Origin: Clostridium sp.
GTDB taxonomy: Bacteria; Bacillota; Clostridia; Clostridiales; Clostridiaceae
Assembly: GCA_029851835.1 (NCBI GenBank)
Contig: JARKVD010000017.1
Location: 124,001 to 188,000, forward strand
Direction: 5' to 3'
DNA length: 64,000 nucleotides
Below the pieces are notes generated by a model, which was given only the letters and a program-made list of their open reading frames with translations, made no database searches and was not told where the DNA came from. A program made the translations under genes and the position numbers. Numbering within the stretch: the first letter of the stretch is position 1; each line of letters begins with the position of its first letter. Positions 48,534 to 49,920 of this stretch are shown here, piece by piece.

Positions 48534-48725
48534 ATGTCAAGAAGATGTGAAATATGTGATAAAGGTGTAGTATCTGGAGTACAATTCTCTCACTCTCACC
48601 GTCAATCAAAAAGAAAATGGGCTCCAAACTTAAAGAAAGTTAAAGCTGTAGTAAACGGATCACCTAAGACTGTACACGTATGTACAAGATGCTTACGTTC
48701 TGGTAAAGTACAACGTGCTGTTTAG
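48534..48725 (+). CDS. rpmB: 50S ribosomal protein L28 (zinc-ribbon form)
   Basis: MSRRCEICDKGVVSGVQFSHSHRQSKRKWAPNLKKVKA; CTRC. Confidence 0.98.
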   Translation: MSRRCEICDKGVVSGVQFSHSHRQSKRKWAPNLKKVKAVVNGSPKTVHVCTRCLRSGKVQRAV

Positions 48726-48732
48726 TTAATAA

Positions 48733-48766
48733 AAAAATGCAACTATTAATTTAGTTGCATTTTTTT
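48733..48766. terminator. Bidirectional terminator between rpmB (+) and spoVM (-)
   Basis: AAAAAATGCAACTA...TAGTTGCATTTTTT. Confidence 0.9.
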
Positions 48767-48776
48767 ATGTGTAATT

Positions 48777-48857
48777 TTAATCAATATGTTTCTTCCTAAC
48801 AAAAATCTTAACAATTTTAGATAAAAATTTTGGTAATTTTATTACTTTAATTGTCAC
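48777..48857 (-). CDS. spoVM: SpoVM-like 26-aa sporulation peptide MTIKVIKLPKFLSKIVKIFVRKKHID (GTG start)
   Basis: AAGGAGG RBS 7 nt before GTG; same length as B. subtilis SpoVM and same IKLPKFL core at residues 6-12; same thiN/rpmB neighbourhood. Confidence 0.85.
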   Translation of the reverse strand: MTIKVIKLPKFLSKIVKIFVRKKHID

Positions 48858-48884
48858 TCTACAACCTCCTTATATATTACTCTT

Positions 48885-49043
48885 CTAGCGAAATTTATTC
48901 ATAATAAACCATCCAATGCCTATTATTGCGCAGCCCCCTATAAAAAGCCAACCCCATATGGGAACCAACACTGCTAAAACTATTCCAGCACCAATGGCAC
49001 AAACAATCATTCCTAAACTTCTCATAGGACGTTTTCTACCCAT
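48885..49043 (-). CDS. Untracked 52-aa membrane protein MGRKRPMRSLGMIVCAIGAGIVLAVLVPIWGWLFIGGCAIIGIGWFIMNKFR
   Basis: ATG with G-rich RBS, two hydrophobic segments; 27 nt upstream of spoVM, after the thiN terminator. Confidence 0.75.
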   Translation of the reverse strand: MGRKRPMRSLGMIVCAIGAGIVLAVLVPIWGWLFIGGCAIIGIGWFIMNKFR

Positions 49044-49248
49044 CTACACCCCCCCATTCTTTCATTATTAGTATATGAAACATATAAATATTGGTTCAAA
49101 AATATTTTATACATTTACTTCAACCCTTTAGTTCAACTTTATAAATATAACTCCATCAAAGCAATGTGCCATGAAGTTTACTATAATATATTCATATAAC
49201 TTTTTAACCATTTTATTCTTAACAATTACAAAATAATCCTTAAATAAC

Positions 49249-49290: not shown

Positions 49291-49920
49291 TTATAAATTT
49301 TTAAATACTAATAAGCATCCTCTTTCAAAAGAAACTTCTACCTGTGCCTTCAAAAACTCATTTGATACTGTTAGATTATCCCCTTGTTTAAGTTCATAAT
49401 TATTCAAAGGATATTTAGCTCCATTTATAGTTAATCCTATAGTATTTTCACAATAACTAAATAAAGAAAACACCTGCCCCTTTTTACCATTAATTATTGT
49501 TGGTTTATCTATTATATAAATTTCATTCATTTCATCTACTATATATCCCTTTAGTCCCTGTTCCATTATCAGTTTTAGCAGACATAAATTAGCCATGAAG
49601 TGATCTATACGCTTTCCTGTACAACCTAATAGTACTATTTCATCTACCCCCATATTTATTGCATTTAAAACCGCTATGTGAGTATCTGTAAAATCTTTTT
49701 CTCTCGGAAGCTTTGTAGTTTTAACTCCTTTTGTAAGTTTTTCTAAAACTTCTTCATTAATTGAATCAAAGTCCCCAAGCAAATAATCTGGCTCTATATC
49801 ATATTTATTGAGAACATCTGCTCCACTATCTGCAGCAAAAATTATATATTCCCCTGTCATATATCTCTTAAGTAAACCCTTTTGTGGAGGTATTCCTCCT
49901 CCTACAATTATTGCCCTCAT
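49291..49920 (-). CDS. thiN: Thiamine diphosphokinase
   Basis: FAADSGADVLNKYDIEPDYLLGDFDSI. Confidence 0.95.
   Translation of the reverse strand: MRAIIVGGGIPPQKGLLKRYMTGEYIIFAADSGADVLNKYDIEPDYLLGDFDSINEEVLEKLTKGVKTTKLPREKDFTDTHIAVLNAINMGVDEIVLLGCTGKRIDHFMANLCLLKLIMEQGLKGYIVDEMNEIYIIDKPTIINGKKGQVFSLFSYCENTIGLTINGAKYPLNNYELKQGDNLTVSNEFLKAQVEVSFERGCLLVFKNL

Follow-up and report, generated by a model that had tools for sequence, protein, structure and literature searches.

On the minus strand of the window (the whole 64,000-nucleotide stretch of Clostridium sp. DNA analysed here), positions 48857-48777 almost certainly encode SpoVM, the SpoIVA-holding anchor of the spore coat, as the second gene of a unit that begins with a small upstream gene, here called ORF52. 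Family assignment, reading frame, synteny, co-occurrence with SpoIVA and a promoter-like motif were all computed for this gene; its membrane targeting, SpoIVA binding and timing would follow by analogy with B. subtilis and C. difficile. The window spoVM is in itself ordinary: it is a known gene, the gap in its annotation has been known since 2012, and its novelty is small because its rare annotation was documented by Galperin et al. (2012; PMC3533761). The original prediction held that annotation misses such ORFs, which is true and had already been published in that study, and the window gene belongs to the same family, with the same annotation gap, as the clostridial SpoVM described there. 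The part of the analysis deserving specialist attention is ORF52 and its phylum-wide linkage to SpoVM. A small-protein family that has been studied once, in C. difficile, and was thought to be lineage-specific is widespread and travels with the coat anchor, and none of the databases searched gives it a family name.

The spoVM frame, from GTG to TAA, comprises 26 codons and specifies the peptide (M/V)TIKVIKLPKFLSKIVKIFVRKKHID. Since an in-frame TAA lies five codons 5' of the GTG, this codon is the sole possible start; GTG starts are also found in the spoVM of three further members of the genus. A ribosome-binding site, AAGGAGG, is read directly on the same strand at 48865-48871, 7 nt before the GTG, and direct reading thus bears out the predicted 26-amino acid, GTG-start, minus-strand ORF behind AAGGAGG-N7. 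On the 3' side of spoVM, a terminator-like inverted repeat (48731-48766, also read directly), with A/T-flanked arms at 48760-48753 and 48744-48737, is a putative terminator and separates spoVM from a convergent gene at 48534-48725 on the plus strand. From its synteny and from what is established about spoVM neighbourhoods we take this gene to be rpmB, encoding ribosomal protein L28; the upstream neighbour at 49291-49920 on the minus strand is, on the same grounds, presumably thiN. The name rpmB for the gene beside spoVM is also supported by PMC5607322. The thiN-spoVM-rpmB neighbourhood that had been claimed is shared, but thiN is not the direct neighbour of spoVM, a conserved 52-amino acid ORF being placed between them.

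The window peptide matches the NCBIfam model SpoVM_broad with an E value of 1.1e-4 and 22.1 bits, about 9 bits short of the curated cut-off of 31. A stricter NCBIfam SpoVM model gives an E value of 0.016, a Pfam scan (SpoV) of the peptide returned no match, and the only match in a PDB search, the SpoVM chain 2mvh, has an E value of 0.55 and is not significant alone. There is thus a match to a SpoVM profile, but one below the curated cut-off, and the B. subtilis sequence given in the original prediction is right, as it obtains the full score with the SpoVM models. The curated cut-off is a poor criterion of membership, because just 27 of the 148 Clostridiaceae genomes reach it as against 143 with a match at the permissive limit of E<=1, whose weakest matches were not individually confirmed, and because the experimentally studied SpoVM of C. 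difficile scores 29.1 bits and likewise falls under it. The 31-bit cut-off of NCBIfam NF033436 excludes most clostridial SpoVMs, that of C. difficile included. In view of the sub-cut-off score, orthology rests on several combined lines: presence throughout the genus, synteny, frame-specific selection and a SpoIVA gene in the same genome.

The claimed likeness to B. subtilis SpoVM (NF033436, NF011327, PF08183; PDB 2MVH) holds in each respect, the length of 26 amino acids, the IKLPKFL core and Pro9 all being present, and Ile6 and Ile15 are retained as well, with Pro9 lying in a basic amphipathic segment. The window copy also shares the thiN/rpmB neighbourhood of B. subtilis spoVM. It differs from the B. 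subtilis gene in that an extra gene separates thiN and spoVM, and its product in having 42% identity, a GTG start, scores below the model cut-offs and Thr rather than Lys at position 2. This Thr2, together with Lys or Arg at position 4, is common to five of the seven genus members. In B. subtilis the substitutions K2A and I15A block cortex formation, and Ile6 contacts SpoIVA (PMC5607322); because Pro9 is the single residue that this study lists as invariant throughout the family, we do not take Lys2 as defining SpoVM. The partner protein is encoded in the window's genome, 3.6 kb beyond the window (E 1e-244), and ends in ...NEGNGGLICIII. Since its 492 codons fit the 492-position SpoIVA model without net gaps, Gly486 appears to be kept, the numbering being taken from that gap-free profile match; the SpoIVA of C. 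difficile differs in having Asn at this position. Across 392 genomes of the class, SpoVM tracks SpoIVA (Fisher p 1e-26), as does ORF52 (Fisher p 1e-12), with genomes counted as independent though they are related.

ORF52 (48885-49043, minus strand) lies between thiN and spoVM, 27 nt upstream of the latter, and encodes a 52-amino acid hydrophobic protein with a basic N-terminus, a GxG motif and a P-x-W-G-W turn. It shares with its family a length of about 50 amino acids, a hydrophobic segment, the conserved residues Gly11, Pro28 and Gly44, and a position directly 5' of spoVM. No Pfam or NCBIfam model matches the family; when ORF52 and 27 relatives were scanned against Pfam, the matches were scattered and weak and had no family in common. 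A single-sequence structure model contains one helix, residues 9-51 (pLDDT 85, pTM 0.37), and would be compatible with either one long helix or a hairpin. In 74 of 117 Clostridiaceae loci the gene immediately 5' of spoVM is homologous to ORF52, and A1, a profile built from ORF52, matches 88 of 392 class genomes, a few weak matches in long frames being false.

The same arrangement occurs in C. difficile, whose genomes were identified through a tpi primer sequence. Its spoVM, MKVVTIKLPKWISNIVLKFMRKSKND, is about 50% identical to the window SpoVM and is preceded by a 50-amino acid ORF, MRNNKSKVLLGILCLATGMAVILSMLLPGWIWSALTALILIGCGALLFFC, whose size and location identify it as CD25622; as in the window, a hydrophobic protein of about 50 residues and SpoVM form a two-gene unit next to rpmB. 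Judged by its profile score, CD25622 is a homologue of ORF52. In C. difficile the two genes are cotranscribed under sigmaE dependence, SpoVM binds SpoIVA, and CD25622 was reported as unique to the Peptostreptococcaceae (PMC5607322). On the profile matches collected here that restriction no longer holds, as the family occurs across the Clostridia and beyond. A literature search for CD25622 under other names found nothing. CD25622 insertion mutants, which are polar on spoVM, are no worse than spoVM mutants, and heat resistance falls by no more than 3-5 fold when spoVM is lost (PMC5607322). Because these polar mutants are no worse, CD25622 is unlikely to play a large independent part in the heat resistance of C. 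difficile, and the same double-mutant phenotype speaks against a strong backup role for the ORF52 family in that organism.

The linkage of the two genes extends well beyond the Clostridiaceae. We fetched 73 loci outside this family with the ORF52 profile alone and ran the SpoVM profile on a 3 kb six-frame translation of each. The best SpoVM match lay on the same strand no more than 150 nt downstream in 44 of the 73 (about 2 expected), as did all 29 of the SpoVM matches at E<=0.01. When broader SpoVM and ORF52 profiles were run separately on the same 392 class genomes, SpoVM was detected in 218, ORF52 in 160 and SpoIVA in 282. In every one of the 78 class genomes with both positions listed the two genes were adjacent on one strand with ORF52 first, and this remained so in 51 of 51 after the noted profile-source genomes were dropped, the source list being approximate. 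In a sample of the phylum, the pair was also found outside the class Clostridia. ORF52 marks the unit and provides a handle for finding SpoVM where its sequence alone fails. This handle bears on a question from 2012, whether distant SpoVMs exist in clostridia where none had been found: unlike Galperin et al. (PMC3533761), who reported no SpoVM in several clostridia, we find divergent SpoVM-like peptides behind ORF52 in many further families.

Three other readings of these data were weighed. That the 26 codons are a chance ORF with a SpoVM-like heptapeptide would be in keeping with their shortness, their place in an AT-rich spacer and a profile score under the cut-off, and yet this has virtually no probability. 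The same frame, place and core occur in all seven genomes of the genus, as expected of a real gene in the original prediction, and in nearly all of the roughly 115 fetched Clostridiaceae loci, where spoVM lies between thiN and rpmB and asp23 is also part of the conserved synteny. Changes in spoVM are mostly synonymous (pS 0.76 and pN 0.02 against the closest relative), and the pooled pN/pS is 0.27 as against 1.06-1.93 in the control, wrong frames, a frame-specific purifying selection that refutes a chance ORF; the strong ribosome-binding site and the conserved upstream promoter motif count against it as well. A second reading, in which the peptide is homologous to SpoVM but has taken on a different task, such as one in the assembly of the cortex instead of the coat, would be consistent with Thr2 and Lys/Arg4 in five genus members and with a SpoVM largely dispensable in C. 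difficile (PMC5607322), but it is very improbable given that Ile6, Pro9 and Ile15 are kept and that SpoIVA is present with Gly at the Gly486 position. Profile match, synteny, selection in one frame, these three residues and the SpoIVA gene together support the predicted identity as SpoVM.

The third reading concerns ORF52, which is short and hydrophobic and whose long-range identity within the family is only 19-55%, so that it might be an unrelated hydrophobic ORF linked to the others by shared composition. We regard this as very improbable. Against A1, CD25622 scores 24.4 bits, above the maximum of 19.5 from 5000 block-preserving shuffles, and other distant members score 30-51 bits; the adjacency to SpoVM is without exception in the 78 genomes, and the pN/pS of ORF52 is 0.29. 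Membership in a SpoVM-linked family is thus well supported for ORF52, while its function is a guess.

SpoVM of the window would be a short amphipathic helix with a kink at Pro9 that the mother cell produces while the spore is forming. Embedded in the outer forespore membrane, whose curvature is positive, it would keep SpoIVA in place as the coat's basement layer. It may contribute little in this Clostridium, because loss of spoVM in C. difficile has so mild an effect on heat resistance. The two genes would form a unit with a putative mother-cell sigma promoter in front and a terminator at the end, and, as a further step, ORF52 may be a small membrane protein at the same place, accessory to SpoVM. 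The putative promoter, of sigmaE/sigmaK type, lies at 49070-49095 on the minus strand and consists of AC (49095-49094), a 16-nt spacer and CATATACT (49077-49070). The motif CATAYANT is present upstream of the unit in 66 of 111 Clostridiaceae regions (2.4 expected). Its end lies a median of 32 nt 5' of the first start codon, and a conserved AAC-like element precedes it at 16-17 nt. In scans with the established consensus sequences, the sigmaE signal was barely above shuffles; a sigmaK-like consensus was clearly enriched, as was the CATAYANT core. Outside the Clostridiaceae CATAYANT was not enriched (3 of 72, 2.0 expected). CATAYANT is a putative -10 element of sigmaE/sigmaK type, and the -35 element looks more like that of sigmaK, unlike the sigmaE-dependent unit of C. 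difficile.

In one lineage, f21, ORF52 occurs in a different context. All 18 fetched loci (L128-L133, L135-L138, L140, L141, L145, L146, L153, L154, L156 and L179) carry ORF52 either flanked by thiN and rpmB or next to rpmB, and no SpoVM-like peptide follows it. SpoIVA is present in 17 of the 18 genomes, in which the SpoVM search across the class returned a single weak match (G479, E 0.013). From these searches SpoVM seems to have been lost in f21. Galperin et al. (PMC3533761) did not find SpoVM in C. phytofermentans and C. saccharolyticum, and our guess is that f21 is the group to which these belong. It is possible, though on balance doubtful, that ORF52 is a Bacillota-wide small membrane protein of the coat basement that acts with SpoVM in the outer membrane of the forespore, and that in f21 it anchors the coat alone or with another factor.

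Two further variants of the unit were observed. Very divergent SpoVM-like peptides, for example MKIVVYKPGKFMRMILKTIFKV, with Pro at position 8 and an adjoining Gly, follow ORF52 in four loci of family f39 (L144, L147, L160 and L167), and rpmB is not the unit's neighbour in L147. Four f23 genomes (G202, G228, G255 and G299; loci L148, L149, L158 and L152) each have two ORF52-profile matches that share a contig, with the second lying a few hundred nucleotides upstream of the first, an arrangement that points to a possible tandem duplication of ORF52.
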